32,071 bases of DNA from Verrucomicrobiota bacterium. GTDB taxonomy: Bacteria; Verrucomicrobiota; Verrucomicrobiia; Limisphaerales; SIBE01. The DNA lies in contig JAIPJX010000047.1 of the NCBI GenBank assembly GCA_021733945.1, positions 1-32,071 of the forward strand, given 5' to 3'. Under the pieces are notes generated by a model, which was not told the origin of the DNA, made no database searches, and was given only the letters and a program-made list of their open reading frames with translations. Both the position numbers and the translations under genes were made by a program. Below are positions 3,824-20,294 of the stretch, piece after piece (position 1 is the first letter of the stretch; every line of letters starts with the position of its first letter).

Positions 3824-5302
3824 ATGAAAACTTCAACACTTCTGTTCGCCCTCACCGCGCTCCTCGTCGCAGGTGGCACGCGCGCGGCCGCGCCTCGGGA
3901 ATCGGACTACTACTCCATAGAAACTTTTCCCACCGAGACCACCCCGATGGAAGTCAGCGGGATGATGCTCCGGAGTGACGGCCGGATGATGGTGGCAACC
4001 CGGCTGGGCGACATCTTTATTGTCGAAGGAGCCTACGGCGACCCCTCCCAGGTCCGGTTCCACCGCTGGGCCAGCGGCCTGGCACAACCCCTCGGATTGC
4101 TCGAACACGAGGGCTGGATCTACTGCGCACAGCGCGGGGAACTCACCCGCCTCAAGGACGTCGATGGAGACGGCCAATGCGACGTGTTCGAAACCGTGTG
4201 CGACGACTGGCAGATCAGCGGCAACTACCACGAATACAACTTCGGCCCTCGGCTCGATCGCGAAGGCTATCTCTGGGTCACCTTGAACAAACCCTTCGGC
4301 GAAGGTCCCTACGGCCAGGCCGACTGGCGGGGTTGGGCCGTGCGCGTCGATCCCAAAACCGGCACCATGCAGCCCATGAGCGTCGGACTGCGTTCCCCGG
4401 CCGGCATCGAAACCAGCCCCTGGGGCGACATGTTTTACACCGACAACCAGGGTGAATGGTGCAACGCCTCCAAGCTTTCCGTCCTTGAGTTCGGGGATTA
4501 CCACGGCCATCCCTGGGGGCTCGCCAGCCAGCAAAAGGCCGGTGCTCCGTTCGACGGAATGCCCCAGCCCATTTCGGGCACCTGGATGAAGGACATGCAC
4601 AAGCAGATTCCGCAGTTCAAAATGCCCGCCGTCTGGTTCCCCTACGACAAAATGGGCAACAGCCCCAGCGGAATGAAATGGGACCTCACCGAGGGCCGCT
4701 TCGGTCCTTTCGCCGGCCAGCTCTTCGTGGGCGACCAGCATCATTCCTGGATCATGCGCGTCTGCCTCGAAAAAGTGGAGGGCCACTGGCAGGGGGCCTG
4801 CTTTAATTTCATGGAGAACTTCCAGTCCGGCATCATCCGTCTGGCTTTTGGAAAGGATTCCTCCCTGTTTGTCGGCATGTCCAACGCAGGCTGGGGCAGC
4901 CGGGGCAACAGTCCCTGGGGACTTCAACGAGTGCGTTGGACCGGTACGACAGCCTTTGAAATCGAGCGCATGTCAGCCCGACCGGACGGATTCGAGCTCA
5001 CGTTCACCCAACCCGCCGATGCCGCCGCCGCCGCCAATCCCCTCAACTACAAGATGGAAAGCTACACCTACCGGCTCGAAAGCCGTTACGGCGGTCCCGA
5101 GGACGACAAGAAGAATGTCCAGATCCTTTCGGCCACCGTGTTGGATGGCGGGAAACGCGTGCGCCTGATCATCGACCCCATTCGCGCCGGGTATGTACAC
5201 GAACTGCACCTGTCCAACATCCCGGCAGCCGATGGCACCGGACTGCTCCATTCGGTCGGTTACTACTCCCTGATCAACATCCCGAAAAACGTTGCCCTCT
5301 GA
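3824..5302 (+). CDS. Secreted beta-propeller protein, sugar dehydrogenase-like (PVC type)
   Basis: A 492-residue protein with a signal peptide (MKTSTLLFALTALLVAGGTRAAA). The body is a run of propeller-like blades with repeated patterns such as GMMLRSDGRMMVATRLGDIF, LAQPLGLLEHEGWIYCAQRGEL and LRSPAGIETSPWGDMFYTDN, resembling soluble PQQ-type glucose/sorbosone dehydrogenases and the membrane-bound dehydrogenase domain of PVC bacteria. DVDGDGQCD (near residue 113) looks like a calcium loop. A beta-rich C-terminal part (about 380-492) follows. In many PVC relatives this domain is joined to a CxxCH haem domain; here there is no CxxCH, and the hemes are in the gene just upstream. Oxidation of a sugar or polyol with electron delivery to that cytochrome is inference. 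Cofactor and substrate are unknown. Confidence 0.75.
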   Translation: MKTSTLLFALTALLVAGGTRAAAPRESDYYSIETFPTETTPMEVSGMMLRSDGRMMVATRLGDIFIVEGAYGDPSQVRFHRWASGLAQPLGLLEHEGWIYCAQRGELTRLKDVDGDGQCDVFETVCDDWQISGNYHEYNFGPRLDREGYLWVTLNKPFGEGPYGQADWRGWAVRVDPKTGTMQPMSVGLRSPAGIETSPWGDMFYTDNQGEWCNASKLSVLEFGDYHGHPWGLASQQKAGAPFDGMPQPISGTWMKDMHKQIPQFKMPAVWFPYDKMGNSPSGMKWDLTEGRFGPFAGQLFVGDQHHSWIMRVCLEKVEGHWQGACFNFMENFQSGIIRLAFGKDSSLFVGMSNAGWGSRGNSPWGLQRVRWTGTTAFEIERMSARPDGFELTFTQPADAAAAANPLNYKMESYTYRLESRYGGPEDDKKNVQILSATVLDGGKRVRLIIDPIRAGYVHELHLSNIPAADGTGLLHSVGYYSLINIPKNVAL

Positions 5303-5312
5303 CTCCCTGGCT

Positions 5313-5337
5313 CGGACCGCCAGCATCCGGCGGTCCG
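5313..5337. terminator. Stem-loop between convergent genes, possible terminator
   Basis: CGGACCGCC (5313-5321) and GGCGGTCCG (5329-5337) form a perfect 9-bp stem with a 7-base loop, 10 bases after the stop at 5302. No T-run follows in either direction. It is placed where a terminator is needed, between the dehydrogenase-like gene and the convergent sulfatase gene. Confidence 0.45.
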
Positions 5338-5380
5338 GAGTTCCTGCCGCCGAATCCACGAAAATCCAAAAAGTCAAACC

Positions 5381-5401
5381 GCTCGCCGGGACGGTTCACG
5401 C
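5381..5401. repeat. Copy of dispersed repeat module A
   Basis: GCTCGCCGGGACGGTTCACGC differs at only two of 21 positions from the A module at 20440-20460. It reaches the first base of the sulfatase stop codon (minus strand, 5401-5403), so the repeat fills the end of the convergent intergenic gap. Confidence 0.6.
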
Positions 5402-7116
5402 TAACGCGACCGTTCGTAGGCTGGTTTCCAAATCCACGGGAGCACGCCCACCCGAACGGCCCACGCCTCCCACAAGGATACCAGCCGTTTTGTAACATCG
5501 GGAAGTTCACGGGCTCGGTCGATCAGCTCCGATCGGTCCTCTTCGATATCATACAATTCCCACGGCCCCGCCGCTTCTTTTGCAACCAGTTTCCATCGCC
5601 CGTCGCGCACCGCCCGGTTGCCCTCATGCTCCCAGAAGATCGGTTCCCGCCTCGCCACGGATCGGCCGCTGAACGCCGGTCGAAGGCTAACCCCTTCCAT
5701 TGGGTGGATCGTTTGGCCGTTGAATTCGCGCGGATAATCCGCTCCAGACACATCCACACAGGTCGCCATCAGATCGATCAAATGCGCGGGCTGGGACTCC
5801 AGACGGCCATGCTTTTCCCGATCGATGCCCCGGGGCCAGTGCACGATCAGGGGACTTGAAATGCCGCCTTCGTGAACCCAGTGTTTGTATTCGCGGAACG
5901 GCGTATTGGAGGCATTGGCCCAGGACACTCCGTATCCCAGGTAGGTGTCTGCCGGGCCGGCCATGACCCCCCTGCCCCGCCGCACCGGATATCCGTCGCG
6001 GGTGAATTCCGGAATCATTTTCTTCTGCAGTTCCGTGGCCGCCATCGGTCGCACGGGCCGATCCGGGCGCGCCTCGAACTCACGCCCCCGCCCCATTCCC
6101 TCCGCGCACCCTCCGTTGTCCGCCAGGAACAGAAGCAGGGTGTTGTCCCATTGACCGGACTCCGTCAAAGCCTGCACGATCCTCCCAATACCCTGGTCCA
6201 TCGAATCGATCATTGCGGCGTACACCTCCATCAAACGGGATTCCCACTCCTTGAGCGGCGCATCCTCCCAGGCGGGAGACCGGGGATCCCTCGGAGACAA
6301 GGGCCACCGGGGATTGATCACCCCAAGCTTCACCATGCGTTCGCGGCGTTCCTCACGCAGCACGTCCCAGCCGGAATCGTAGCGCCCCTTGTATTGATCC
6401 ATGTCGGCGGGCTTGGCATGCATCGGCCAATGCGGTGCGGTGAACGCCACATATAGGAAAAACGGCTGCTTCGTTTTTCTTTCCCCATGGTCTCGAATGT
6501 AGGTCGCGGCATGATCGGCAATTGCATCGGTATAATAAAACCCTTCACCGGGCGGCACCTGGGTATTGCCATCGGTCAGCGAATTCGGGTCATAGAAACT
6601 ACCCGCCCCATGGATGGTTCCGAAAAACCGGTCAAACCCACGCTCAAGAGGCCAATTGTGTTTCGGCCCCTCCGGCGCGATATATCGCGTCACGTGCCAT
6701 TTTCCAGACATGAAGGTGGCGTAACCACCTTGTTTCAATACTTCAGCGATGGTAAGAGATTTGCGGTTCAGATCCCCCCGGTAGCTCTCCAAGCCGCGAT
6801 CCTCCATCATGTGTCCAACCCCGGCCTGATGAGGGTAGAGCCCGGTGATCAGGGAGGCGCGCGTGGGGCAACACCGGGAGGTGTTATAGAACTGCGTGAA
6901 CCGGACCCCGTGAGCAGCCAGGCGATCAAGGTTTGGAGTCTGGATCTCACCTCCATAGCAGCCAATGTCGCTGAAACCCATGTCATCGGCCATCACGATG
7001 ACTATGTTCGGGCGCTCCGGTTCCAACGATGCAGCTCCATCGAATTGGGGGAGCAGCAGACTCCAGAGCGCCCACGTGAACACCGTGTTCCACCAGAGTT
7101 TCGGCAATATTCTCAT
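5401..7116 (-). CDS. Secreted sulfatase (formylglycine type), canonical active site
   Basis: A 571-residue sulfatase of the alkaline-phosphatase superfamily, which hydrolyses sulfate esters using a formylglycine made from a cysteine. Residues 1 to about 30 look like a signal peptide (WALWSLLLPQFDGAAS). Metal-binding aspartates are in MADDMGFSDIGCYGG (D44, D45). The catalytic site reads RCCPTRASLITG with C82 as the residue to be modified, a proper C-x-P-x-R. The GKWH motif follows, and RDGRWKLVAKE near the C-terminus is a usual family signature. The substrate cannot be told; PVC bacteria use many such enzymes on sulfated polysaccharides. It is divergent from the Pel operon and convergent with the dehydrogenase-like gene. 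A paralogue lies at 30330-32021. A formylglycine-generating enzyme is not encoded in the window. Confidence 0.9.
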   Translation of the reverse strand: MRILPKLWWNTVFTWALWSLLLPQFDGAASLEPERPNIVIVMADDMGFSDIGCYGGEIQTPNLDRLAAHGVRFTQFYNTSRCCPTRASLITGLYPHQAGVGHMMEDRGLESYRGDLNRKSLTIAEVLKQGGYATFMSGKWHVTRYIAPEGPKHNWPLERGFDRFFGTIHGAGSFYDPNSLTDGNTQVPPGEGFYYTDAIADHAATYIRDHGERKTKQPFFLYVAFTAPHWPMHAKPADMDQYKGRYDSGWDVLREERRERMVKLGVINPRWPLSPRDPRSPAWEDAPLKEWESRLMEVYAAMIDSMDQGIGRIVQALTESGQWDNTLLLFLADNGGCAEGMGRGREFEARPDRPVRPMAATELQKKMIPEFTRDGYPVRRGRGVMAGPADTYLGYGVSWANASNTPFREYKHWVHEGGISSPLIVHWPRGIDREKHGRLESQPAHLIDLMATCVDVSGADYPREFNGQTIHPMEGVSLRPAFSGRSVARREPIFWEHEGNRAVRDGRWKLVAKEAAGPWELYDIEEDRSELIDRARELPDVTKRLVSLWEAWAVRVGVLPWIWKPAYERSR

Positions 7117-7291
7117 ACCCGCATTCTATCTCAAACCGCGACCGCTGACGACACCTGGTTCTCATGGAACGAATCCGTGTCCACACAATGTCCGCCCCCG
7201 CCGATTCACCCCTTTACTAGGTCGAACACCACCGATATGGTCTGGTGATGGTAAGTAGCGAAACCAATCCCTTCAGGCCGGGCAGCACCGA
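7117..7291. promoter_or_regulatory. Divergent intergenic region between the sulfatase gene and the Pel operon
   Basis: These 175 bases separate two genes read away from each other, so the pelA promoter and a sulfatase promoter are expected here. I found no convincing -35/-10 pair and no cyclic-di-GMP riboswitch core. The call rests on position only. Confidence 0.4.
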
Positions 7292-10165
7292 ATGAGAACC
7301 TGCGGAGTCACGTTCCAGAAACTCTGTTGCATCCTGCTTCTTTGCCTGTCGATGCAAATCGCGACACCGGCTGAACCCTTGAATTTTTACATCGATTACT
7401 CCCTCATTCCGGACGAAGCGGCGATGCGGGCGCACGACCTTTCGATCGTCAGCCCGCAGGCACGCTTCGACATGACCCGGGTCCACAAGACCGGACAGGA
7501 AATCTACGCGTACATCAGCGTGGTGGAAGTGGCGTCCGACGCTCCGTACCGACCCAAACTCGAGCCGAGCGGCATCCGCCTCATGGGGACCAACGAACTT
7601 TGGAAGAGCGATTTCGCCGATATCGCCGCTCCGGAATGGACCCGGTTCGTGCTCAAGGAACTGGCCGCACCCATTGTCGAACAAGGGTTCGATGGCTTTT
7701 TTCTGGATACGGTCGACAGTCACGAACTTCTCGCCAAAGGTTTCCCCGACCGCGCCGAGGAATTCCGAAAAGGCATCATCTCCCTGATCAAAGCCCTCAA
7801 ATCGGCACACCCCACCAGGAAAATCATCCTCAACCGGGGATTCCCCATCTGGGAGGAACTCAAGGAAAGCATCGACGGAGTGCTCGTGGAATCGGTGTTC
7901 CAGACATTCGAGGGATTGGGTGGCAAATACAAGCCCGTGACGAACTCCGACTCCGATTGGTTGATCGGTCATATCCGGAGAATCCAGGCTGCCAACCTGC
8001 CCGTGTACGTGGTCGACTACTCGGATCCCAGCCGTGCCGACCTGGCCATGGCCACGGCAAAACGAATTCAGGACCTGGGCTGCCATGCCTTCGTGACCAC
8101 CCCGCAACTCAACGGCGTCACCCTGGCCCCCATCCACGAAAAGCCCCGACGCCTGCTCGTGCTCTTCGGCAATCAGGACACGGAAGCCCTCCGCGTTGAA
8201 TGGGCGACCGACAGCGAACTCAAGACCACTTCACAGTCGCCCCTCGAATGGCTTGGATTTGAGATGGATTTCCTCAACCTGTCCCGGGATCCGCTCCCGG
8301 AAACGCTCGGGGGAAAATACCTGGGAGTCGTCATTGACCGGAGTCTCCGGATTCCCGTGGAACAGGAACTCAAAACGGTGGACTGGCTCATCGCCCAAAA
8401 AGACGCTGGAAAAAAAATCCTGTTCCTCAGCCAGTTCCCCACTCTCGAACCCGCCACACAAGCAAAACTCTTCCGGGCCTTTGGCATCGGAGGCACCGGA
8501 GACTCGATCTTTCCCGTGACCCAGCTGACCTCACCCATCATTTCCCCGATGATGAATTTCGAGGCCAAAGTAAATCTTCTCCCGACCCGCTATCGGGACG
8601 TGCAGGCACCAGCCGGATCCAAGGTCCATCTGTCGGTGCGCGGCATCGACGGCAGGGGAGCCAACCGAACCTTCGATGCCGTGTTCACGACGCCCTGGGG
8701 CGGCGCGGCGATTGAGCCCTACATTTTTTTCAGTCGCCCCGACACCGTGCCCTTCTGGTTGCTGAACCCGTTTGACTTTTTCACCGAAGCCCTGATCTCC
8801 GAACCCTTCCCCGTTCCCGACACCACCACACGCGATGGACAGCGGGTGTTTTACGCGCACATTGACGGTGACGGTTTCCGCCACCAGACCACCGTGGAAA
8901 AGGGCAAAACCTCGGCGGAGATCATTCTTGAACAGGTCGTTCAAAAGTATCCCCTCCCGTTCACCTGCTCGGTGATTGAATCCGAAATCCGCGGCCTGAT
9001 CACCGATCAAAAACCAGGGGACGAAGCACGAATGACGGCCATCGCCCGGGAGATGTTCGCGCTGGACAACGTCCAGGCCGCGTCCCACGCATTCACCCAC
9101 CCCTTTTATTGGAACGACACGGACCGCGAATCCGCTTTGTACGAAAAACCCTTCCTCGATCTGATCCCGCCATTCACGATGAAGGAAATTGATGTCGAAC
9201 GCGAGGTCGTGGGATCCGTGAAGTTTATTCAGGAAAGACTCCTGCCGCCAGGCAAACAGGTGGAGATTTTTCTGTGGTCGGGAAACTGCCGCCCCTTTCC
9301 GGAGGCCATTCGGCTGACCCGCGAACTGGGCATCGAGAACATGAACGGCGGCGACACCACCCTTTCGCGCCGCAACCCCACACTCACCCAGGTCTCTCCG
9401 CGCGCCATTCCCTGGGGTGATGAACTTCAGATCCACGCAGCCAATCAGAACGAGAACGTATACCGGGACCGCTGGAAACCCTATGGCCAAAGTGACATTC
9501 CGTTCTACGGAGGATATATTCACGCCATCGAATCGTTCCAGCAGACCGGGTCCCCACGGCGGCTCAAACCGGTGAACGTCTATTTCCACTTCTACAGCGG
9601 CGACTCGCTCATGGCGCTCAAAGCGCTCACCAAAGCACTCGACTGGTCGGTGGAACAGCCCCTGCATTCCCTCACCGCCAGACAGTATGCCCAAACCGTC
9701 CGCGACTGCCGCAACACCAGACTCTTCAGGGCTCCCGACAAACGCTGGATCCTGGTGAACGACGGCAACCTCAGAACCTTTCGGATCGACCGCCCGACCG
9801 GTTTGCCGGACATCTCCCAATGCGAGGGGGTCACCGGATACGCGGTCTCCGGGGAGCACCTCTATATTCACACCGACGGCTCGCCGCGCGTCACACTGCG
9901 ATTCTCATACCAGCCGAGCGCCCATATCTACCTGATCTCCAGCAGCGCCGAAATTGAGTTCACAAACCTCGATCCCGAATCGGCCGAGTTTTCCGTCTCC
10001 GATCTCCGCCCCTGCCGGGTCACTCTGGGCGGCGCCTTCGCCGGCGCCCAGTACGAGGTCCGCATCAACGAGCAACCCACGACCCTCAGGGCCGACTCGA
10101 AGGGACACCTGGCGCTGACCCTGCCAAACACGGCACGCGTCGCGCTCAAATCGCTCAACCGCTGA
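7292..10165 (+). CDS. pelA: PelA: periplasmic Pel polysaccharide hydrolase/deacetylase
   Basis: A 957-residue protein, close to the 948 residues of Pseudomonas aeruginosa PelA. A signal peptide (residues 1 to about 27) leads into an endo-alpha-1,4-N-acetylgalactosaminidase-like barrel (about 28-280; starts LNFYIDYS). GFDGFFLDTVDS and DGVLVES hold barrel-end acidic residues; E200 is in the place of the known PelA catalytic glutamate (E218). A middle Rossmann-like part follows (about 290-500). The deacetylase domain begins with HIDGDG, giving D525 and D527, and the metal histidines are H599 and H603 (SHAFTHPF), matching D528/D530/H600/H604 of the Pseudomonas enzyme. The C-terminal 200 residues are beta-rich. 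PelA trims and partly deacetylates the polymer so it can be exported. It is the first gene of the operon, 13 bp before pelB. Both active sites look intact. Confidence 0.92.
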   Translation: MRTCGVTFQKLCCILLLCLSMQIATPAEPLNFYIDYSLIPDEAAMRAHDLSIVSPQARFDMTRVHKTGQEIYAYISVVEVASDAPYRPKLEPSGIRLMGTNELWKSDFADIAAPEWTRFVLKELAAPIVEQGFDGFFLDTVDSHELLAKGFPDRAEEFRKGIISLIKALKSAHPTRKIILNRGFPIWEELKESIDGVLVESVFQTFEGLGGKYKPVTNSDSDWLIGHIRRIQAANLPVYVVDYSDPSRADLAMATAKRIQDLGCHAFVTTPQLNGVTLAPIHEKPRRLLVLFGNQDTEALRVEWATDSELKTTSQSPLEWLGFEMDFLNLSRDPLPETLGGKYLGVVIDRSLRIPVEQELKTVDWLIAQKDAGKKILFLSQFPTLEPATQAKLFRAFGIGGTGDSIFPVTQLTSPIISPMMNFEAKVNLLPTRYRDVQAPAGSKVHLSVRGIDGRGANRTFDAVFTTPWGGAAIEPYIFFSRPDTVPFWLLNPFDFFTEALISEPFPVPDTTTRDGQRVFYAHIDGDGFRHQTTVEKGKTSAEIILEQVVQKYPLPFTCSVIESEIRGLITDQKPGDEARMTAIAREMFALDNVQAASHAFTHPFYWNDTDRESALYEKPFLDLIPPFTMKEIDVEREVVGSVKFIQERLLPPGKQVEIFLWSGNCRPFPEAIRLTRELGIENMNGGDTTLSRRNPTLTQVSPRAIPWGDELQIHAANQNENVYRDRWKPYGQSDIPFYGGYIHAIESFQQTGSPRRLKPVNVYFHFYSGDSLMALKALTKALDWSVEQPLHSLTARQYAQTVRDCRNTRLFRAPDKRWILVNDGNLRTFRIDRPTGLPDISQCEGVTGYAVSGEHLYIHTDGSPRVTLRFSYQPSAHIYLISSSAEIEFTNLDPESAEFSVSDLRPCRVTLGGAFAGAQYEVRINEQPTTLRADSKGHLALTLPNTARVALKSLNR

Positions 10166-10178
10166 TCCACGCCGCCTC

Positions 10179-12521
10179 ATGCGCCCCGGACTGAAATGGC
10201 TCCCGTTTCTGAACAGAGACCAGGGCAAGGCCTTTCGCCCTGTCCCCCTTCGGATGCTCGCGGGTCTGATCATCGTCTCGCTCACCCTCGCTTATTATCT
10301 TCTGCCCTCCAGTCGCAAACTTCTGGAGCGGCAACTCGAGGACGGGCAACTGCCACAGGCTCTCTCCACCCTGCGTGACATCCCGTTGAGCGAACGGGAA
10401 ACCGACCCCGCCTTTTTCGATCTGCTCGAGCTTCAGCTCGTTCGGCAACTGCTCGACCCGACCGAACCGCGCATGGTGATCCGCCAGCTTCTCGAAGCGG
10501 CGCATGGGTATGAAGCCCACGGGTTCCGTGACGCATTTCTTGTGGAAATCCTCACGATGATCCGAAAGGCACCCAACATCGAGCAGGCCCACACCCTGCT
10601 CAGACCCGCCATCACGCGCATGCCACAGCGGGGGCAGCAGCGGATTTATCTCTACCTCGCCAACGCAGCCCTTTCCGCCGATCAACCCGTCTTGGCCCCC
10701 CAACTCTATGTTCAGTTCTGGCAGAGTTCGCCCCGGGCCGAGGAGACCACCCACGAGATGGCCAAACTCTGGCGTTCGGCCGGCCACGCCCAGAAGGCAC
10801 TCGACACCATCGAAACGTATCTCGCCGACACCGGGGTTCTGCCTGTAAAACTCACCTTTCCGCTCGCCCGGCTCCGCATCGATCTGTTCCGCGAAACAGC
10901 CCAACCCGGCCTGGCTTTCGAAGCCCTCCGCGAACTCTTCCCAACAGTCACCCCCGACCATCAGGCCGAGGTGTTCGACCTGCTGATCTCCACCGCACTG
11001 GAATCAAGCCGGACTCCCGAAGTCCTTCCGATCGTTCAGGCGCGAGCCGAAAAATCGCCGGAGGACGCGGCACTTTGGAAACGGCTGGGTGAACTGGCCG
11101 TCTCCGGAGGCGACATTCCGGCGGCCATCCAGGCGTATCAGCGGCTGACCCGGCTCCAGCCTGCTTCGGCCGAAAACTGGGGAAAGATCGGGCAGTTGAG
11201 CGAATGGAACACTCAGCCCAACCAGGCATTTGACGCATACCTCAAGGCCCTCGAACTCCGGGACACGGCGGGCATTGAACGTTTGGCCGACCTGAGTCAG
11301 GGCCTGTATCGGGACGCAGAACTGGCCCTCAAACTGGAGGAACTCGGCGACCTGATCGATCCCAGCCGGTTTCCCCGACAGTTCGCCCGTCTGTACGGAC
11401 GTGTGGGGGACTTCGACAAAGCGCGAAAACTTTACACAGACCTTCTCAAGGCACCCGATGCGAGTGCGGAGCTCCTGATTGAATACGGATCCTTCCTACA
11501 GGCACTTTCCGAGTTCGAACCCGCCTACGAAGCCTTCCGAAGGGCCTCTCTGCTGAAACCCGGAGACCAGGGCATCCTCAAGGCGCTGGCCGAAATTCAA
11601 TTCCGGCTCGGCGACTATTCCCGTTCGCTCCTCGACTATCAGGCCCTGCTCAAATCCAGCGACGAAATCGAGGTGTTCGAAACCTACCTGCGACTGGCCG
11701 AGTCACTCGGCAATCTCGAGGGAATCATTCAAGGGTTGCGCATCAAGATCGCCGGGGAAGTCGAGGTGTCCGACTACGACTACGAACGACTGGCCCTGTT
11801 CCTCAACATCCAGGGCAAACGGACCGAGTACCTTCAGACTCTCGAACAGGCACTGGAACGGTTTCCGGACCGCAAGAACCTTCGGGAAACCACCGCCTAC
11901 GCGTATTCAGACGGCGGGCAACTCAAGGAGGCCCTGCGGCATCTGGAACAACATCCGGACCTGAGAACCCACCCCAGGCTGGTCCGGTTCTACGTCAGTG
12001 TGCTCGCCCAGATGCGTGAGTTCGAAAAGGCTCTGGCGTTTTTTAATTCCGTTCCCGCGAAACGGGTTGCCTCGGCACCGCTCATGGAGCTGCGCGCTTA
12101 CGTCAACGAAGCGGCGGGAAACATCGATGAAGCGACCCGGGTCTACTCTCAGCTCTACGAGGCGGAGCCCAGGAACGCCCGGTACGCGCTGAATTATGGC
12201 CGACTCTTGAGCAGCATTGGCAAGGCCCGGCAGGCCGAAACCCTGATTGCCCCATTCCTCAAGGACGCAACCCCGGAAACCTCCCGGTTGGCCGCTCAAG
12301 TGTACTCCGCTCTGGGCGATTTCCAGGAGGCCGAACAACTCCAGTTCCGGTTCCTGAAATCGGGCCCACAAGCCGCCGAGGCTCCGCAGGCCTGGGGGTT
12401 CCTTGGCGATCTCCGACTGGTGCAGGGAGACCGCAGGGGTGCCAAACGGGCCTACCAGACGGGGCTCAACGAGATGTTTAAAGACTTCGCCCCGGGAAAC
12501 CGCTCTCTCAGCGCACGGTAA
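10179..12521 (+). CDS. pelB: PelB, TPR scaffold part: inner-membrane-anchored
   Basis: A 780-residue protein with one N-terminal membrane helix (about residues 27-46, LAGLIIVSLTLAYYLLPSS) and then almost entirely helical TPR-type repeats to the end, for example GDIPAAIQAYQRLTRLQPASAENWGKIGQL and FEPAYEAFRRASLLKPGDQGILKALAEIQ. This matches the N-terminal two thirds of Pseudomonas PelB (1193 residues), whose periplasmic repeats bind PelA and guide the polymer. It stops with TAA at 12519-12521 with no beta-barrel. The barrel is in the next gene, whose ATG is 11 bp downstream. I read this as a true split and not a broken gene, because the next protein has its own export signal. Start chosen at the ATG 13 bp after pelA; no Shine-Dalgarno sequence is seen. 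Confidence 0.85.
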   Translation: MRPGLKWLPFLNRDQGKAFRPVPLRMLAGLIIVSLTLAYYLLPSSRKLLERQLEDGQLPQALSTLRDIPLSERETDPAFFDLLELQLVRQLLDPTEPRMVIRQLLEAAHGYEAHGFRDAFLVEILTMIRKAPNIEQAHTLLRPAITRMPQRGQQRIYLYLANAALSADQPVLAPQLYVQFWQSSPRAEETTHEMAKLWRSAGHAQKALDTIETYLADTGVLPVKLTFPLARLRIDLFRETAQPGLAFEALRELFPTVTPDHQAEVFDLLISTALESSRTPEVLPIVQARAEKSPEDAALWKRLGELAVSGGDIPAAIQAYQRLTRLQPASAENWGKIGQLSEWNTQPNQAFDAYLKALELRDTAGIERLADLSQGLYRDAELALKLEELGDLIDPSRFPRQFARLYGRVGDFDKARKLYTDLLKAPDASAELLIEYGSFLQALSEFEPAYEAFRRASLLKPGDQGILKALAEIQFRLGDYSRSLLDYQALLKSSDEIEVFETYLRLAESLGNLEGIIQGLRIKIAGEVEVSDYDYERLALFLNIQGKRTEYLQTLEQALERFPDRKNLRETTAYAYSDGGQLKEALRHLEQHPDLRTHPRLVRFYVSVLAQMREFEKALAFFNSVPAKRVASAPLMELRAYVNEAAGNIDEATRVYSQLYEAEPRNARYALNYGRLLSSIGKARQAETLIAPFLKDATPETSRLAAQVYSALGDFQEAEQLQFRFLKSGPQAAEAPQAWGFLGDLRLVQGDRRGAKRAYQTGLNEMFKDFAPGNRSLSAR

Positions 12522-12532
12522 ACTCGCCGCCC

Positions 12533-14200
12533 ATGGCTTCTCTCGCTTCACCCGCTCAAACCCGACCCCGAACGCTCCGGGTTCGCGAACTTGCAGTCCG
12601 GGCACCCGCGGATCAGGCGGATCCGGCGGGCTCAACCATCAGGAAACTCCCCAGCTACTCGCGATGGATTCCTTTGGCGTGCGCCCTCCTGCTGCCCTTC
12701 CGGGGTTCCGCTCAGCAAACCAACGCTCCACAGCCAGACTCCCCCGAAGCTCGGGAAGATGTCGCCGACGCACGGGCTCTGGAACTCTTCGGTCAACTGG
12801 GCATCGAACACCGCCGTTACCTCGTCTACCTGTATTCCAGGCTGAACAAACCGAGGATCGCGTCCGTTCTGGCCGACCGCATCCTGTCCGAGTTGCCCGG
12901 CGACAAGCAGACTCTTCTGACCTTGGCTTCGATGCACATTGATCAGAAGAACGTCGATGCAGCGCTCTACTACGGGCACAAGCTGACCGAGCTCTTTCCC
13001 GGAGACGAACAGGCCCGATATTATCTGGGTGCCGCCCTGTATCTCGCGGGTCGGTTCGCTGAATCCAGGGACACCCTTCAGGGCATCAAGCAGGAACGTT
13101 ACAAGAACAGGCTCTATCCCTACCAGGGCGACCTGGCCTCCGCGACTCTCCTTGCCGAAGACTGGCACAGGGCGCTGATCGCCTATCAGGAACTTCTCCA
13201 GCGCCACCCCCTCACCCAGGAGGTCCGGTTGAGCGCACGGCGCCTGGTCGAACGACTCTACCGTCTGCACCTCCCCCAAATCTCGTTCGATGCAACCGCC
13301 AACCTCATCAACTCCGGCAGCTTCTATCGAACCCGCCTCGATTACCAACGCCATGTCACAGACGCCAGCCTGCTGTTGGTGGAGGTGAGCCGGGACGACA
13401 CCGAAGTGCTGGAGCGCCCCCTGCTTCGCAACCGACGGACGGACCGGACGGATCTCCTGATCGGCCTGCAAACCGTGTTGAATCCGAAATGGACCTCGCG
13501 CCTGTCCCTCGGCGGATCCTCCGGCTCGGGCCCGGTCGGCAGCGCCAGCCTCATACGCTCGTTCGGAGAACGAAAAATCATGACGCTCGAAATAGACGGC
13601 AACGAACCGTCCCTCGAAGGGCTCCTGTTCCAATCCCTCGACGGCCGGAGAGACCGGGCCGTGTGGTCGACGGACTATGCACTTGGAAAAAACTGGGTGA
13701 TTCTCTCCGAAATCTACGGCTGGGAATCGGTCATCGAACGAAACCGGATCGGGACGGGTTACGGCGGCAACTGGAATCTCGAACGAATCCTGATCCACAA
13801 CCGACCGGATCTCCGCGTTGGCTACCGGGGCATCTGGACCCGATTCTCCCGGGACACCCGAGACACCCGCCTCATTGCTCCAGCCGCGGAACCCGGTCTG
13901 GACCTGACCGGACGCACCACGCTTCTCCAAGGTCTTCTGCTCCCCGAATTCCACAGGCACGGACTCTACGCCAGCTGGCGCGGGCAACTCTCCAGCGCGC
14001 TCTCCTACAGCGCCTCCGCCGGCATGGACTATGACATCACGCTTGGAATCTTCGCCAAGAACGGGACTCTTGGCATCGACTACTTCCCCACTCGCCGGAT
14101 TGAGCTGAAAGCCGAGACCCGTTACGCAAGCAGCGCGAGGACGGCGGACGCCGCCTCGAGCCTCTGGCAGATAAATGTTGCCTTTAAATACTGGTTCTAA
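12533..14200 (+). CDS. pelB: PelB, outer-membrane beta-barrel part with short TPR segment
   Basis: A 555-residue protein. A hydrophobic export signal sits unusually late (about residues 46-60, WIPLACALLLPFRGSAQQ), after 43 polar residues. No ATG, GTG or TTG lies in frame between the ATG at 12533 and the hydrophobic core, so the start is uncertain. Residues about 80-230 carry three or four TPR-like units (DAALYYGHKLTELFPGDEQARYYLGAALYLAGRF is typical). From about 250 to the end there are alternating beta strands, and the last residue is Phe (NVAFKYWF), the usual C-terminal signal of outer-membrane barrels. This corresponds to the C-terminal third of Pseudomonas PelB, the pore through which Pel leaves the cell. 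It lies 14 bp before pelC. Confidence 0.82.
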   Translation: MASLASPAQTRPRTLRVRELAVRAPADQADPAGSTIRKLPSYSRWIPLACALLLPFRGSAQQTNAPQPDSPEAREDVADARALELFGQLGIEHRRYLVYLYSRLNKPRIASVLADRILSELPGDKQTLLTLASMHIDQKNVDAALYYGHKLTELFPGDEQARYYLGAALYLAGRFAESRDTLQGIKQERYKNRLYPYQGDLASATLLAEDWHRALIAYQELLQRHPLTQEVRLSARRLVERLYRLHLPQISFDATANLINSGSFYRTRLDYQRHVTDASLLLVEVSRDDTEVLERPLLRNRRTDRTDLLIGLQTVLNPKWTSRLSLGGSSGSGPVGSASLIRSFGERKIMTLEIDGNEPSLEGLLFQSLDGRRDRAVWSTDYALGKNWVILSEIYGWESVIERNRIGTGYGGNWNLERILIHNRPDLRVGYRGIWTRFSRDTRDTRLIAPAAEPGLDLTGRTTLLQGLLLPEFHRHGLYASWRGQLSSALSYSASAGMDYDITLGIFAKNGTLGIDYFPTRRIELKAETRYASSARTADAASSLWQINVAFKYWF

Positions 14201-14214
14201 CTAACCTGCTGATT

Positions 14215-14733
14215 GTGGCGAAATTCAATGCTTTCATAGCCCTGGTCCTGCTGGGAGCGCTCGCCGGATGCGCTTCCTTTTCCAACTCCCTGAGCCGGAC
14301 CACCGGTGAAGCAGGAGCCATGCGCCTCTTCGTACCCCCGTTCTTCAATGCAACCGGAGACGAACATGCAGGACGCGCTCTCACGGAACTGACGGTCACC
14401 GCCCTGCTCCACCGCGGAATTCCGGTTGCACAAACCGAAGCCGCTCTCGCAAAGACCCGGGTCGAGGACGCCCCGGACAAACCAACCCTCTTTCTCGAAA
14501 CCGCCAAATCGCTCGAAGCCACACATCTCTTGGTTGGTACCGTGCACGAGTATCGGTACAAAACCGATCTGGACGGAAATCCAGCCGTGGGAGTCACGCT
14601 CCGGTTGGTGGACGCCACCGACGGCCGCACCGTGTGGCAGGACAGCGAGTCTGGAGTGGGCATGCTGGCCGCCTCGCTGAGTTCGGTGGCCCAGCGCTCG
14701 ATCCGAAAGCTCGTCAACAAGATCCCATTTTGA
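14215..14733 (+). CDS. pelC: PelC: outer-membrane lipoprotein of Pel export
   Basis: A 172-residue lipoprotein starting with GTG. The signal peptide ends in a lipobox (LAGC, C19), with Ala after the cysteine, as for lipoproteins sent to the outer membrane under the rule known from E. coli. The length equals that of Pseudomonas PelC (172 residues). The mature part reads as alternating strands and helices (ALTELTVTALLHRGIPVAQTEAAL; RLVDATDGRTVWQDSES), in keeping with the known PelC fold, which assembles into a periplasmic 12-subunit ring around the PelB exit. Position in the operon supports the call. A 109-bp gap to pelD follows, one of only two real gaps in the operon. Confidence 0.85.
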   Translation: MAKFNAFIALVLLGALAGCASFSNSLSRTTGEAGAMRLFVPPFFNATGDEHAGRALTELTVTALLHRGIPVAQTEAALAKTRVEDAPDKPTLFLETAKSLEATHLLVGTVHEYRYKTDLDGNPAVGVTLRLVDATDGRTVWQDSESGVGMLAASLSSVAQRSIRKLVNKIPF

Positions 14734-14842
14734 ACCCGGGCACCGGAGGGGGAATCCCTCAACCAACCTGCCGTTCCCGGACACCCATCCACAGAATTGC
14801 CAGCCGCTTCCAACCGGCCCGGGCTGCAGGTCCCACAGCCCC

Positions 14843-16204
14843 GTGAAACCGTCCTTCATCAAATCCACATTCGCCCATCTGCCGCACCGCAGTGCCGCGA
14901 TCGATGCGGGCATGATCCTCGGTTTCCTGTTCTTTCTGAACGGCCTGTTCTCCCCACTCGACCTCGGGTGGCTCACCCTGCATCCGTCCCCCTATTTCCT
15001 ACTGCCCCTCCTGATGGGTTCCCGCTACGGCTTTGCCGCCGGGTCCCTGTCCGGGCTTATGGCTGCCGGCACAATCGCCTCGGGCCTGATGTTCCTGGAA
15101 GCAATGCCGTTTGCGACCCTTTTCAAGCTCCACGGAGCACTCCTGGGGAACTTCATCTTCGTCGGCGGCATCTGCGGCGAGCTTCGTCGCGGATTCCGCA
15201 ACAAGGAAGTCCAGCTCACACAACGCAACGAAGTCCTCCACAAACAACTCAGGGACCTGGATGTCGATCTGGCCCTGCTGCGCGAATCCAAAGCCGAACT
15301 CGAAGAAATGTTGGCCACGGAAAACTCCGAACTCTCCACCCTGGACAGTGAACTGCGCCAGCTCTTTGACGCCGACGAAGAGGAAATATTCCCAAGCCTG
15401 CTCCTGCTTCTCAACCGGCAACTGCGCATCACCGACGGGGCCATCTACACCGTTGCCGAGGACGACTCGCTCAAAAGACGCGCCTGTTTCGGGCAAACCG
15501 ATCACCTTCCGGAAAAGATCGATCCCGGGGAAATCGAAATCATCGATCTGGCCGTTCGCAACAAGACAACGGTGACCCTGCCGGAGATATGGAAGGATGC
15601 CACACCGCACCACGCCGATTATCTCATCGTCGTGCCTCTCCTCAACTCCGAGGAAAAGGTCATGGGCCTGGTGGCCGTCACCAACATGCCTTTCATCGCA
15701 CTGAACCGGAAAGCGGTCAGCCTGGCCTCCCTGATCTGTCGCTGGGCGTCGCGCATTGTGGAAAAACGAATCCTCACCCACACCTCGTCACAACCGGAGC
15801 AAGGCAGGCTCTTTGACACCGCGTTTTTCCGGGAACACACCGAGCTGGCCCTTGATTCCTACCGATCCCACGGTTTGCCCGCCTCCATCGTGCTCTTCAC
15901 CGTGCCTCCCGATTGCGGGATCAGTCAAAACCATCTCGAACGGGCGATCATGGCCAGCGTCCGCAGCGGGGACTGCCCCGCCGTGCTTGATCTGCCCTCC
16001 ACCCACCTGACCGTGCTCCTTCCGCTCACCGGAGAACGCGGCGTGAGCATTTTCATCAACCGAATCCTGATCAACTGCCGCAAGGACCCGAAGCTGGCCA
16101 AACACATCCGCTCCCGGTGGATCCGGTTTGAATCTCATCAAAACCTCGACTCCATTTGGACCGAGCTGACCCGCGATGTGGAAGAACCTGCTCTCGACGC
16201 TTAG
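14843..16204 (+). CDS. pelD: PelD: inner-membrane cyclic-di-GMP receptor
   Basis: A 453-residue protein (Pseudomonas PelD: 455), starting with GTG. Residues about 18-110 contain four membrane segments (GMILGFLFFLNGLF and others). A coiled-coil-like stretch follows (about 120-175, EVQLTQRNEVLHKQLRDLD), then a GAF-type domain (about 175-310) and a degenerate GGDEF-type domain (about 320-450) without the GGDEF signature. The inhibitory-site motif is kept as RSGD (R374, D377), with another arginine at R407. In Pseudomonas, R367, D370 and R402 hold the cyclic-di-GMP dimer, with nearly the same spacing. Binding switches on polymer synthesis by PelF. The end overlaps the start of pelE by 29 bases. 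Confidence 0.9.
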   Translation: MKPSFIKSTFAHLPHRSAAIDAGMILGFLFFLNGLFSPLDLGWLTLHPSPYFLLPLLMGSRYGFAAGSLSGLMAAGTIASGLMFLEAMPFATLFKLHGALLGNFIFVGGICGELRRGFRNKEVQLTQRNEVLHKQLRDLDVDLALLRESKAELEEMLATENSELSTLDSELRQLFDADEEEIFPSLLLLLNRQLRITDGAIYTVAEDDSLKRRACFGQTDHLPEKIDPGEIEIIDLAVRNKTTVTLPEIWKDATPHHADYLIVVPLLNSEEKVMGLVAVTNMPFIALNRKAVSLASLICRWASRIVEKRILTHTSSQPEQGRLFDTAFFREHTELALDSYRSHGLPASIVLFTVPPDCGISQNHLERAIMASVRSGDCPAVLDLPSTHLTVLLPLTGERGVSIFINRILINCRKDPKLAKHIRSRWIRFESHQNLDSIWTELTRDVEEPALDA

Positions 16205-17198
16205 CCTCGCGCTGGCCGCTCTTCTCGAGGCGTGGACCCTGGGAGTGTTGATCCAGGGTGCCTCCGATCCCGCTTCGCTGGAATGGCGCCCCGCGACGTT
16301 CCATGCCTTGGGGATCGCGCTGGGAGCATTCGGATTCCACCTCACCTGGCCTCAGTCCCAGCGCCGGAACCGATTCGCGTTGACCCTGTTCTTCACCGCC
16401 CTCTCCCTCCCGCTGCCGCTGATAGGACTCATACTCATGGGTGCCTTCCGACTCGTGCTCCGCCTGCGCCCCAGGCACATGCGGAACACCCAGTATGTGT
16501 TCGGGGAAAAACCGTTTCTCACCCTGGAAAAGCCCGAGGACTTCCAATTGCAGTCCGTCCGCTCCGTTCTGGAGATTCTCAGCAGCAAGGACGAAAACCT
16601 CCGCCGGACCGCCATCATCGGGTTGCGCTCTGCCGACCCCAAGAAATCACTTCCCCTCCTGCGCAAGGCCATCCAGGACAGCGACGAACAGGTGCGTCTG
16701 CTCGCTCAAACCCAGTTCAACCGGATCCTTGCCAAACTCGAGACCGCCGTCAAACGCATGGAAGCGGGCCTGCCCGACTCCACCCACCGGGCCTCCGATC
16801 TGGTCGTGCTCGCAGAGCATTATCACGAACTGGTCTATCTCGCCGTCAGCAGCCAGGAGACCGAGTCCATCTACCTCGAGCGGGCCACCCAGCTGTTGAC
16901 CGAAGCACTCGACCTCAGCCCCGATCTCACCGCAGCCCGTTTTCTCCTGCTCCGCTGCCAGGTCAAAACCCCCGACATTGCAGGCGCCAAAGCATCCGTG
17001 CAAACCCTCTTGGCCTCGGGGTTCCCTGAGAATTCCCTCCTGCCGTGGATGGCTGAAATCTGTTTCGTCGAACGGGACTGGAACACCTTTCTCAAAACCC
17101 TTCGCAAAATGGATGCTTCGCCATCCTGCGATTCGAGACTCGCCGACCGCCTCGCCTTCTGGCTTCGCCCGGCCAACCGCACGGAGGTGCCAGCGTGA
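16176..17198 (+). CDS. pelE: PelE: inner-membrane TPR/HEAT-like partner protein
   Basis: A 340-residue protein (Pseudomonas PelE: about 330). The first 100 residues hold three or four hydrophobic segments (LLSTLSLALAALLEAWTLGVLI; ALTLFFTALSLPLPLIGLIL). The rest is helical: a HEAT-like part (about 130-190, RRTAIIGLRSADPKKSLPLL) and a TPR-like part (about 205-335, ERATQLLTEALDLSPDLTAA). In Pseudomonas, PelE joins PelD, PelF and PelG in the inner-membrane synthase complex. The gene begins inside the 3' end of pelD and its stop overlaps the pelF start by 4 bases, so the three are translationally coupled. The identification rests more on position and layout than on motifs. Confidence 0.82.
   Translation: MWKNLLSTLSLALAALLEAWTLGVLIQGASDPASLEWRPATFHALGIALGAFGFHLTWPQSQRRNRFALTLFFTALSLPLPLIGLILMGAFRLVLRLRPRHMRNTQYVFGEKPFLTLEKPEDFQLQSVRSVLEILSSKDENLRRTAIIGLRSADPKKSLPLLRKAIQDSDEQVRLLAQTQFNRILAKLETAVKRMEAGLPDSTHRASDLVVLAEHYHELVYLAVSSQETESIYLERATQLLTEALDLSPDLTAARFLLLRCQVKTPDIAGAKASVQTLLASGFPENSLLPWMAEICFVERDWNTFLKTLRKMDASPSCDSRLADRLAFWLRPANRTEVPA
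17183..17188 (+). promoter_or_regulatory. Strong ribosome binding site of pelF
   Basis: GGAGGT lies 6 bases before the GTG at 17195, inside the end of pelE. It fixes the pelF start. It is one of only two strong Shine-Dalgarno sequences noticed in the window. Confidence 0.75.
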
Positions 17199-18745
17199 CC
17201 CCGTCCACCAGCGAACAAGTGGCGGATGTGGCCCTCTTCCTCGAGGGCACCTATCCCTATGTTCTGGGAGGCGTTTCCTCCTGGGTCGACCAGATCATCC
17301 GCGGCCTGCCCGAACTGACCTTCGCGCTCTTTTACCTCGGAAGCGAAAAAAAGCCCGACCAGGAAGTCCAATACTCCCTGCCCTCCAATGTGCTTTCCCT
17401 CTCCGAGGTCTACCTGCACGACCGCATCCCGGAGAAGGATCTGAAGCCCGGACGCCTGCCCGAGCACCTGCGGGCACAGGGATACGAGTGTTGGAGCAAG
17501 TTTTACCTCGCTGAAACCCAGGAGGAACAACTGGCCGCATTCTGGACCATGATCGACGGCCTGGAGGCGATGGAGGGACATATCACCTTCGGGAACCTCA
17601 CCCAGGATCGGGCACCCTGGGAAATCCTCATGGCCGCCTACGAACGGTTTGCGCCGGACGAATCGTTCATCGATTTTTTCTGGACCCTGCGATTCCTCCA
17701 CATGCCGCTGTGGACCCTCTGGAAGGCCCGCACCCTTGTGCCCCGCGCCCGCATCTACCACAGTGTGTCAGCCGGATACGCCGGTTTTCTGGGAGCCATC
17801 AGCGCCCGACGGCACGGGGTCCCCTTCTTGCTCACCGAACACGGGATTTACACCAAGGAACGCATCGCCGAGATCAGCCAGGCGGACTGGATCTACGAAC
17901 AGGAGAATTATCGCGTGACCTTCGCCGAGGGACTGGGCCCGCTCAAACAACTTTGGATCGGGCTCTTCGCGTTCCTTGGCAGAATCGCGTACGAACAGGC
18001 CGGCAGCATCATCACGCTTTACGAGGGAAACGCCCTGACCCAGGTTGAATTCGGTGCCGACCGGGCCCGCATCGAAATCATTCCCAACGGAATCGAACCT
18101 TCGAAATTCGACGGGATCCGCGACCGGATCCTGAGCCGGTGGAACCCGGAACCCGCCATGAAATGCGTTGGTTTTGTCGGGCGCGTGGTGCCGATCAAGG
18201 ACGTAAAAACACTGCTGCGCGCCGCCCGTCTCCTGATCGAACGGCGCGATGACGTTGAGTTCCTGATCGCCGGACCCTATTCGGAGGATCCGGATTACTT
18301 TGAAGAATGCCAGAAAATCGTCCGCCTGCTGCATCTTGAAAACAAGGTGACGTTCCTGGGAAAACAGAAACTGACCGATGTGATTCCCCGCATCGATGTC
18401 ATGGTCCTGACCAGCATCAGCGAGGGACTTCCCCTCGTCGTGCTCGAAGCCATGGCGGCAGGCATTCCCACCGTGGCCACCGATGTGGGGGCGTGCCGCG
18501 AACTCATCTTCGGACGAACCCCGGAGGACAAGGCACTGGGGCGCGCCGGCCGATTGACCAAGATCCTTTCCCCCCAGGAAACGGCCCTGGCACTCGCCAC
18601 CACCCTTGAAAACCCGGACCAATGGCGCAGCATGGGCACCTCGGGTCGATTGCGGGTCGAACAATGTTACACCATGACGCTGATGCTCGACAGTTACCGG
18701 GAACTCTACCGGGAGGCGTCCACAGCGCCCGCCCCGAAATCATGA
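17195..18745 (+). CDS. pelF: PelF: cytosolic GT4 glycosyltransferase, Pel synthase
   Basis: A 516-residue glycosyltransferase of family GT4 with the GT-B fold (Pseudomonas PelF: 507). It begins with the PelF signature EGTYPYVLGGVSSWV (about residues 15-29). The C-terminal half has IPNGIEPSKF, GFVGRVVPIKDVKTLLRA and the E-x7-E nucleotide-sugar motif in SEGLPLVVLEAM (E410, E418). PelF has no membrane segment and uses UDP-activated amino sugars to make the polymer. The GTG start is backed by a strong ribosome site and by the 4-base overlap with pelE. An 85-bp gap precedes pelG. Confidence 0.93.
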   Translation: MTPSTSEQVADVALFLEGTYPYVLGGVSSWVDQIIRGLPELTFALFYLGSEKKPDQEVQYSLPSNVLSLSEVYLHDRIPEKDLKPGRLPEHLRAQGYECWSKFYLAETQEEQLAAFWTMIDGLEAMEGHITFGNLTQDRAPWEILMAAYERFAPDESFIDFFWTLRFLHMPLWTLWKARTLVPRARIYHSVSAGYAGFLGAISARRHGVPFLLTEHGIYTKERIAEISQADWIYEQENYRVTFAEGLGPLKQLWIGLFAFLGRIAYEQAGSIITLYEGNALTQVEFGADRARIEIIPNGIEPSKFDGIRDRILSRWNPEPAMKCVGFVGRVVPIKDVKTLLRAARLLIERRDDVEFLIAGPYSEDPDYFEECQKIVRLLHLENKVTFLGKQKLTDVIPRIDVMVLTSISEGLPLVVLEAMAAGIPTVATDVGACRELIFGRTPEDKALGRAGRLTKILSPQETALALATTLENPDQWRSMGTSGRLRVEQCYTMTLMLDSYRELYREASTAPAPKS

Positions 18746-18830
18746 CACTCGAAAGACCAACCGACGCAGCCCGCCGGAGCGCGCGGACGCGGTGCCGGCC
18801 CTCCGGCCCCACCCTTTTCCCGTATTCACC

Positions 18831-20294
18831 ATGGCAGGCATAGGATTTGAACTGAACAAAATCCTTTCACGCCAGGGCTACCTGTCCGTGTTTAAGGCGT
18901 ATGCCTACGCCGGCGTCATTGGAAGCGGGCCCTGGCTGATCGCGGTGATCTCGCTCGGCCTCCTGGGCACGGCCATGAACACCCTCGACATGACGGCGGA
19001 CACCCGTGTCTTCTTCGTCTCCGTCTCGGTGGTTTACGGGTTCACGCTGGTCCTCACAGGCCCCATCCAGGTCGTGCTCACCCGTCATGTGGCCGACCAG
19101 GAGTATGCCGAACGGCGGGACACCATCTTCCCCATTTACATCAAGTGTGTGAGCTGGGTCTCGCTTCTGTTTGCGGTCCTGGGCTCCCTGTTCTTCGGCC
19201 TGCTCGTCCCGGCCCCCCTCCTGTTCAAGGGAGCGGCCGCCCTCCTGACCGCTCTGGTGGCCGCCATCTGGATCAGCGCCATATTTCTATCCGCACTCAA
19301 GAACTATTACGCCGTCCTGATCAGTTTCGCGGTCGGGTGCACCGTCAGCTGCCTGGCCGCCTGGCAATTCGCCATCTCTCTGGGATTGGCCGGTGCCATG
19401 CTGGGCTTCGCCATCGGACACGGCGTTCTGCTCACGATCCTGGCCTCGGTGATCTACAAGGAACTCGGACTCTCCGACGCCAAGGCAGGCCCCCTGCTCG
19501 GCAGCTTTGTCAAATACTGGGACCTGGCGCTGGCGGGATTGTTTTACAACCTGGGAGTCTGGATGGACAAGTTCCTCTACTGGTGGGTCGATCCAAAGGC
19601 CGATGTCGTTGCGGGCATCCTCAGGGCCTCCCCGGTGTTTGACCGCGTGGTCTACTTCTCCTTTCTGACCATCCTGCCCGGAATGGCGGTTTTCCTGCTG
19701 AAACTCGAAACCGAATTCGCAACCCAGAACCTTCAGTTCTGCCAGCACGTGCTCAAGAAGGGCACCCTGAACCAGATCCGCACCATCAAGCACCAGATGG
19801 TCGATTCCCTCAGGGAAGGCATTTTCCTTCTCGTGAAGGTTCAGGGCCTGTTCACGGGCCTCCTGATCCTGGGGGCCGACCGCGTCATGCGCATCCTCGA
19901 ATTGGGTGCCGTGCAGTCCGGCGTGCTCCAGATCTCGTTGATTGGACTGTTCCTGCTCGTGATCTTCCTCGCCCTGCAGACCATTCTCTTCTACCTGGAC
20001 AAACGATTGGATGCCATGCTCTGCTGCATCCTCTTCACCGCGATCAACGGTTCGGTCACGGCGTTGTGCCTCCCGATGGGCGAAAAACTATACGGCGTTG
20101 GATTCCTGGCCGCCGCCGCTTCCGCCGTCATCATGGCCTCCTTCATGGTCAACCATCACCTCAAGGACCTCGAATACGACACCTTTGCCATGCAACCCGT
20201 TTACAGCGGCCCCGAAGCTCCTGACATAACAAACAAACCTTCGGCCTTCCCCTCCTCCGTAGCCAAACCACCTGGTTTCCCCCCGAAAGCCTAG
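18831..20294 (+). CDS. pelG: PelG: Wzx-like inner-membrane Pel transport protein
   Basis: A 487-residue polytopic membrane protein with about 12 hydrophobic segments, of the polysaccharide transporter (MOP/Wzx-like) kind; Pseudomonas PelG has 456 residues. I chose the ATG at 18831 because MAGIGFELNKIL is the usual PelG N-terminus; an in-frame GTG at 18792 would only add a proline-rich leader. Conserved stretches include AYAGVIGSGPWLIAVISLG and FYNLGVWMDKFLYWW. The C-terminal 35 residues are a hydrophilic, proline-rich tail with no membrane segment, longer than I expect for this protein. It is the last gene of the Pel operon; the repeat-filled gap starts right after its stop. Confidence 0.9.
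   Translation: MAGIGFELNKILSRQGYLSVFKAYAYAGVIGSGPWLIAVISLGLLGTAMNTLDMTADTRVFFVSVSVVYGFTLVLTGPIQVVLTRHVADQEYAERRDTIFPIYIKCVSWVSLLFAVLGSLFFGLLVPAPLLFKGAAALLTALVAAIWISAIFLSALKNYYAVLISFAVGCTVSCLAAWQFAISLGLAGAMLGFAIGHGVLLTILASVIYKELGLSDAKAGPLLGSFVKYWDLALAGLFYNLGVWMDKFLYWWVDPKADVVAGILRASPVFDRVVYFSFLTILPGMAVFLLKLETEFATQNLQFCQHVLKKGTLNQIRTIKHQMVDSLREGIFLLVKVQGLFTGLLILGADRVMRILELGAVQSGVLQISLIGLFLLVIFLALQTILFYLDKRLDAMLCCILFTAINGSVTALCLPMGEKLYGVGFLAAAASAVIMASFMVNHHLKDLEYDTFAMQPVYSGPEAPDITNKPSAFPSSVAKPPGFPPKA

Follow-up and report, generated by a model that had tools for sequence, protein, structure and literature searches.

PelB encoded by two genes in the Verrucomicrobiota: a predicted inner-membrane TPR rod and a separate predicted outer-membrane porin

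Introduction

PelB carries the biofilm sugar Pel out of the cell. In Pseudomonas aeruginosa it (PaPelB) is a single chain of 1193 residues (structures 9h80 and 5wft) laid out as an inner-membrane helix (residues 1-36), an array of tetratricopeptide repeats (TPR1-19, residues 69-726), an alpha-rich region (727 to ~875-910) and a porin from residue 876, and PelA requires TPR9-14 of this array (PMC12022489). Current models as given in PMC12141448 regard PelB, in P. aeruginosa and its homologs, as a rod that possibly connects the two membranes physically; the same source describes a construct, PaPelB 762-1193 behind a foreign signal peptide and with the rest of the rod missing, that assembles with PelC, and a barrel-only variant that fails to hold PelC. 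The pel operon analyzed here lies on a 32,071-nucleotide contig of a Verrucomicrobiota bacterium (assembly GCA_021733945.1, contig JAIPJX010000047.1; "the window" denotes this whole stretch) and encodes PelB in two pieces, a TPR protein and a barrel protein. These share with PaPelB the order of parts (membrane helix, TPRs, alpha-rich region, 16-strand porin), the operon partners and the porin fold (Z 30), but form two chains, broken at about PaPelB residue 727, with a separate hydrophobic export segment at the N-terminus of the porin half. Model and profile match show a long TPR array behind an N-terminal inner-membrane helix, and the predicted fold shows a 16-strand porin preceded by the counterpart of the helical region that PelC encloses. 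Because there are two genes and no single polypeptide bridging both membranes, the window's PelB is classed as a two-chain variant.

A "pelB fission" in aquatic thermophilic species is already in print (Bundalovic-Torma 2020, PMC7112194, Fig. 5iii legend). It has in common with the window a pelB present as more than one gene in a pel operon; the comparison is with the wording of that legend, which mentions no break position, signals, function or Verrucomicrobia. In the alginate system AlgK-AlgE, a TPR/Sel1-like scaffold that binds the modifying enzyme and a porin are likewise separate proteins (PMC9384988, PMC9734138). However, AlgK is a much shorter outer-membrane lipoprotein with Sel1-like repeats, whereas the window's scaffold, a PelB homolog with a membrane helix and Pfam TPR matches, is predicted to be anchored in the inner membrane, and the likeness is limited to the working principle. 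BcsC and PgaA also combine a TPR array with a 16-strand porin and are the next-best structural matches of the barrel protein, but they are single chains of other pathways. No Verrucomicrobial or Alcanivoracaceae pelB split was found in the literature searched; new here are the clade-wide Verrucomicrobial form, the exact break, a second break in Alcanivoracaceae and the case that the fused form may be derived. Breaks after (Verrucomicrobiota) or before (Alcanivoracaceae) the PelA-binding repeats make the importance of the bridge, or of one half over the other, for Pel modification and export directly testable, and the separate porin half resembles the truncated construct used for the PelBC structure.

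Two intact pelB genes across the Verrucomicrobiota

The two genes and the gap separating them are:

10179..12521, + strand: pelB TPR gene (780 aa), predicted inner-membrane-anchored TPR rod; residues 16-768 align with residues 11-728 of the single-chain Pseudomonas PelB of locus L040 (profile-profile, hhalign, E 2.6e-38)
12522..12532, + strand: gap of 11 nucleotides
12533..14200, + strand: pelB barrel gene (555 aa), predicted outer-membrane porin half; fold model, structural matches, and PF24604 at 39.4 bits over 13322-14017

As the original prediction from the window's letters had stated, PelB occupies two open reading frames here: the TPR gene ends at 12521 and the barrel gene begins beyond the 11-nucleotide gap in a different frame. 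Their identities to the counterparts in a same-genus genome (G001) are 59% and 56%, and the differences by codon position (.313/.236/.627 for the TPR gene,.352/.260/.620 for the barrel gene) show coding constraint in both. Both halves were read in 14 Verrucomicrobiota genomes (window, G001, G328, L024, L025, L030, G458, G634, G513, G640, G291, G685, G687 and G455; L025 is the same contig as G449, G685 is the genome of L022, G687 that of L023, and G328 is a one-contig genome), leaving out G662, which has a stop inside the barrel, and G686, whose barrel is cut by a contig end. Two intact genes are present in 13 of the 14. The fourteenth, G455 (L130), has one frame of 1307 aa, in which the C-terminal homology of the rod shifts to the +1 frame after seven consecutive G and stops at a TGA overlapping the ATG of the barrel gene, whose signal peptide is intact; judged from these reading frames, G455 is a case of split genes with a one-base frame slip and not a genuine fusion. 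A fused pelB in close relatives, named in the original prediction as what would reduce the split to a local mutation or sequencing error, was accordingly not found among the 14 genomes surveyed, G455 being the sole candidate. G423, of the same phylum, is also two-piece, its rod being truncated by the start of the contig. One search matched 26 genomes; the 10 with E <= 4e-18 were examined, and the other 16 (8e-8 to 8e-4) look TPR-only. In the Verrucomicrobial pel locus L134 (G662) it is an in-frame stop that breaks the barrel gene; pelC-E look intact there.

It is highly improbable that the split is a sequencing error, a frameshift or a decaying gene. The two frames do differ, the barrel leader is unconstrained, and G455 demonstrates one-base slips at the same junction, there making a false fusion; however, the same break with intact frames recurs in 13 of the 14 genomes, one-contig G328 included, the barrel N-terminus is hydrophobic, and coding constraint is seen on both genes. 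As far as the sequences tell, two-gene PelB is conserved across Verrucomicrobiota and is neither an error nor a local mutation.

The two halves can also be found apart. In L030 (Verrucomicrobiia, JAUICH010000016.1) the barrel gene (5613-7553) precedes pelD, and pelA is found together with the rod gene (14943-20042) downstream of pelG; since the halves stand there in different gene clusters, scaffold and channel are separable, as had been supposed. In G291, G685 and G687 the pelA-rod-barrel genes are on a contig other than that of pelDEFG (L015, L022, L023), and in L023 pelC adjoins pelD.

Position of the break

The numbering of L040 PelB is that of PaPelB plus 1 (phmmer to 9h80). The match of the TPR protein listed above ends at L040 residue 728, and residues 97-550 of the barrel protein align with 668-1195 (profile-profile, E 3.9e-18). 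From these alignments, the numbering and the PaPelB layout, the break is placed by sequence at the border of TPR19 and the alpha-rich region, ~PaPelB 727, directly before the alpha-rich region that PelC encloses. By the same alignment the PelA-binding repeats fall in the inner-membrane half, where the scaffold for PelA had been expected, and the PelC-enclosed region and porin in the outer-membrane half. The two proteins together exceed single-chain PelB by 142 residues (780 + 555 - 1193; the earlier estimate was about 140). Most of this excess comes from the leader/linker of the barrel protein (~70 residues) and from a TPR part that exceeds PelB 1-727 by ~40 residues. An added docking module was considered for these extra residues and rejected on that account.

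Predicted structures of the rod and the porin

AlphaFold2 models of both proteins, proposed earlier as a check, were made from alignments of the window and related loci with the proteins of G001 and G328 left out. Their parts are:

10248..10301, + strand: N-terminal membrane helix of the TPR protein, residues 24-41 (model helix; KD19 1.91)
11196..11858, + strand: TPRs matching the PelA-binding repeats TPR9-14 of P. aeruginosa PelB, ~residues 340-560, approximate (hhalign register, PaPelB numbering; conservation peak 331-390)
12339..12482, + strand: last TPR of the rod, residues 721-768, with a conserved WG-LGD-GD-A-RAY motif, counterpart of TPR19 (alignment, model, conservation)
12533..12718, + strand: N-terminal leader of the barrel protein with its export signal, residues 1-62, of which the exact start is uncertain (hydrophobic segment 45-56, KD12 2.04; pLDDT <50; no coding constraint)
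12743..13270, + strand: periplasmic alpha-rich/TPR-like region, residues 71-246 (ten helices; the model from 161 on overlies PelB from 803 on, within the PelC ring)
13277..14197, + strand: 16-strand beta-barrel, residues 249-555 (model; top structural matches are the PelB, BcsC and PgaA porins)

The TPR protein model (pLDDT 89.7) has the N-terminal helix and then helical pairs onward to residue 768, and the solved structures matching it are generic TPR proteins, with nothing specific among them. Conservation was scored with 12 sequences for each half (excluding L030, G291, G423 and L078; G455 rod cut at 768), and the best conserved stretches of the rod are its last TPR (0.378 at residues 721-750) and the repeats at 331-390 (0.38-0.445), compared with a rod mean of 0.281.

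The barrel protein is modeled (pLDDT 85.2) as a disordered leader to ~66, ten helices at 71-246 and 16 strands at 249-554. Its best solved match is the PelB chain of the PelBC cryo-EM complex (9h80_M, Foldseek E 1.4e-20), on which model residues 161-555 superpose with PelB 803-1191 (Z 30.0, rmsd 3.1, 371 residues), and in the genome search it reached 39.4 bits to PF24604, the PelB C-terminal barrel family, for which the cut-off is 31. In this superposition of the model the helical region is the part that PelC encloses in PelB; it is also better conserved than most of the barrel. The original suggestion that the barrel's repeats may be a docking site is not supported in that form, the region being no added module but the counterpart of the alpha-rich region of PelB in the PelC ring as described in PMC12141448 and PMC12022489.

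The claim that the barrel protein has its own export signal is supported by the hydrophobic segment. Maximal KD12 values at the N-termini of split barrels are 1.39-3.36 (15 loci, G423 and L078 included), versus 0.92-1.86 at the junctions of 22 fused proteins. Differences from G001 by codon position are.69/.52/.74 over residues 1-62 (42 codons), indicating no coding constraint, and.32/.24/.61 over residues 63-555; because the first 62 residues are without constraint, the true start of the protein, and hence the exact signal peptide, is uncertain. Barrel proteins of the closest PelF relatives of the window (L022, L023) and of G640 (genes at L129:6700-9495, L144:4675-7335 and L145:5382-8147) are 886-931 aa long and have between signal and TPR-like region a long Pro/Arg-rich stretch, perhaps a flexible linker.

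A two-piece Pel exporter

The window very probably encodes a complete Pel export machine with PelB from two genes: a periplasmic TPR rod, anchored in the inner membrane and bearing the PelA-binding repeats, and a separately exported porin with a short helical vestibule, the part around which a PelC ring would lie. The analysis itself shows the two intact genes, their conservation across Verrucomicrobiota, the break position and the predicted folds; docking of the two products and a hand-over of polymer are what we infer beyond that. The rod, anchored by its N-terminal helix, would carry Pel delivered by PelDEFG to PelA, which sits on the middle repeats. The last TPR of the rod would dock non-covalently, end to end, on the helices with which the porin vestibule begins, either within the PelC ring or at its mouth, and the PelA-processed polymer would then be handed to the porin. 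Such docking is plausible, and it would make a covalent link between the membranes dispensable for Pel export; that relatives keep the two-piece arrangement also suggests that the two membranes need not be tied by one chain. It fits that the last rod TPR and the PelA-binding repeats are the conservation peaks of the rod and that the helical region of the porin is conserved.

Several observations weigh against this assignment. The hmmscan search did not list PF24604 for the window's barrel, which was found by the genome search only, and the barrel is therefore near the limit of hmmscan. The ATG at 12533 gives an unusually long leader with a modest hydrophobic core, and the barrel N-terminus of G328 is weak, its KD12 of 1.39 falling among the values of fused junctions. 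In sequence the halves share an overlap of ~60 fused-protein residues, though hardly any in structure. Production of Pel by these genomes is a prediction from their genes, and PelA binding and Pel export by the window's two PelB halves are likewise predicted.

It is also conceivable, though unlikely, that the porin works without the rod, whose only task would then be to present PelA to the polymer close to the inner membrane, without ever docking. The separate cluster of pelA and rod in L030, away from the barrel, would suit such an arrangement, as would the PelB lacking a barrel in four Nitrosospira loci and the expectation, by analogy with PaPelB 762-1193, that the porin half alone should assemble with PelC. 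Against it stand the last TPR, which is among the most conserved stretches of the rod, and the break, which leaves both ends adjacent in the frame of the single chain.

Other phyla, a second break and the history of PelB

A PelF-profile scan of genome contigs kept 80 loci, 61 of them with a barrel within the flanks: 51 fused (the genes of L057 and L096 recognized by tblastn), three late-split (L024, L025, L030), six early-split and one cut at a contig end (L034). An iterated barrel hidden Markov model, which misses divergent barrels, gave no new loci. All fused PelB, among the scanned loci and in the PelF tree, belongs to Pseudomonadota or Myxococcota. The two-piece form is found in L078 of Desulfovibrio sp. 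UBA2564 (rod 942 aa, barrel-like protein 623 aa) and in G876 of the same phylum (872 and 498 aa); the L078 barrel, like that of L018, is less certain, as these were read by eye with the support of TPR (in L078 also SPOR) Pfam matches. In one search 73 of 247 genomes matched, with only G675 itself and G876 beyond 1e-10. The L078 barrel protein carries a SPOR domain, and pelA of that locus (L078:3-2781) is also two genes, one for a piece with hydrolase-like sequence that is truncated by the end of the contig, the other for a 699-aa protein that has a signal of its own.

The early-split form consists of an inner-membrane piece of 291-335 aa followed by a piece of 920-1099 aa with TPRs and barrel; its break, at L040 282-285 in each of the two three-locus groups, precedes the PelA-binding repeats. 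The large piece is full length in 23 of 46 Alcanivoracaceae genomes (25 places, open frames of 923-1017 aa), and the small piece adjoining it was read in L027, L082, L090 (= L182), L180 and L181. A small inner-membrane piece and a separately exported TPR-barrel piece are seen in L027, L082, L090, L036, L091, L100, L180 and L181, with a 4-nucleotide overlap in most.

In a quick PelF tree (89 rows, midpoint root; L024 dropped for a stop in its match, L057 and L096 unlabeled), 50 fused-labeled rows, L034 included, fall in one 65-row group (SH-aLRT 100) that includes the six early-split rows as well. One side of a branch (100) is made up of the 10 late-split rows, and the early split requires two changes. 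A second tree with paralog outgroups agrees in outline; in it the late split needs two changes, and its outgroup branches are saturated. This rooting, by glycosyltransferase paralogs of the window's own genome, was discarded as unreliable: eight of 13 loci had a usable open reading frame, branches ran from 5 to the maximum of 10, and one fell inside the ingroup.

Tentatively, and with not quite an even chance of being right, the two-piece exporter may be ancestral. Single-chain Pseudomonas PelB would be a later fusion, limited to Pseudomonadota and Myxococcota, and the bridge would have been broken again at ~PaPelB 283, on the other side of the PelA-binding repeats, in Alcanivoracaceae and in a beta/gamma group. 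The half that carries PelA would then differ between the two designs, being the inner-membrane half in one and the outer-membrane half in the other. A derived fission, a question of history and not of mechanism, in which an ancestral single chain was cut in the lineage of the Verrucomicrobiota and, at another place in the chain, also in Alcanivoracaceae and in some betaproteobacteria, is a possibility to be taken seriously while remaining somewhat doubtful: the early breaks lie clearly inside the fused clade and the unrooted tree is compatible with a root there, the outgroup branches being at maximum length, whereas the midpoint and the (unreliable) outgroup roots both fall outside that clade. 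Two-piece PelB occurs moreover in Desulfovibrio-type genomes and G423, so that one fusion in the Pseudomonadota-Myxococcota branch suffices. The word "split" in the original prediction holds as far as it means two genes; it presumes, however, that the Pseudomonas form came first, and the PelF tree allows the reverse.

In the Nitrosospira loci L037, L056, L083 and L089, PelB is 900-915 aa long and covers L040 8-825 without a barrel, pelD being directly next with no pelC between; a search of the Nitrosospira Nl5 genome (G688) found no PelB-type barrel. The Myxococcales genome of L033 has a second PelB-type barrel open reading frame of 813 aa (L147:3049-5490), away from pelF in an unrelated neighborhood.

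Operon and genomic setting

The window, part of a 5.4 Mb assembly in 225 contigs, holds a complete pel operon on the + strand at 7292-20294, in the order pelA-TPR gene-barrel gene-pelC-D-E-F-G, so that the partners expected beside a PelB (pelA, pelC, pelD-G) are all present. The identities of PelF and PelG are unambiguous; the pelC product has no Pfam match. The remaining genes are:

7292..10165, + strand: pelA (957 aa), first gene of the operon, periplasmic Pel deacetylase/hydrolase; Pfam Glyco_hydro_114 (GH114-type hydrolase) at residues 60-273
14215..14733, + strand: pelC (172 aa, GTG start), ring lipoprotein; LAGC lipobox, and a conserved position adjoining the barrel gene or pelD in relatives
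14843..16204, + strand: pelD (453 aa); GAF_3 and position
16176..17198, + strand: pelE (340 aa); position and TPR_19
17195..18745, + strand: pelF (516 aa), glycosyltransferase; NF038011 PelF, 542 bits
18792..20294, + strand: pelG (500 aa); PF16933, 390 bits

The flanks of the operon (988-7116 and 20767-28916) contain cytochrome c/PA14 protein, sulfatase, PSD1/PSCyt and DUF1501 genes, and a threonyl-type tRNA synthetase gene follows pelG.

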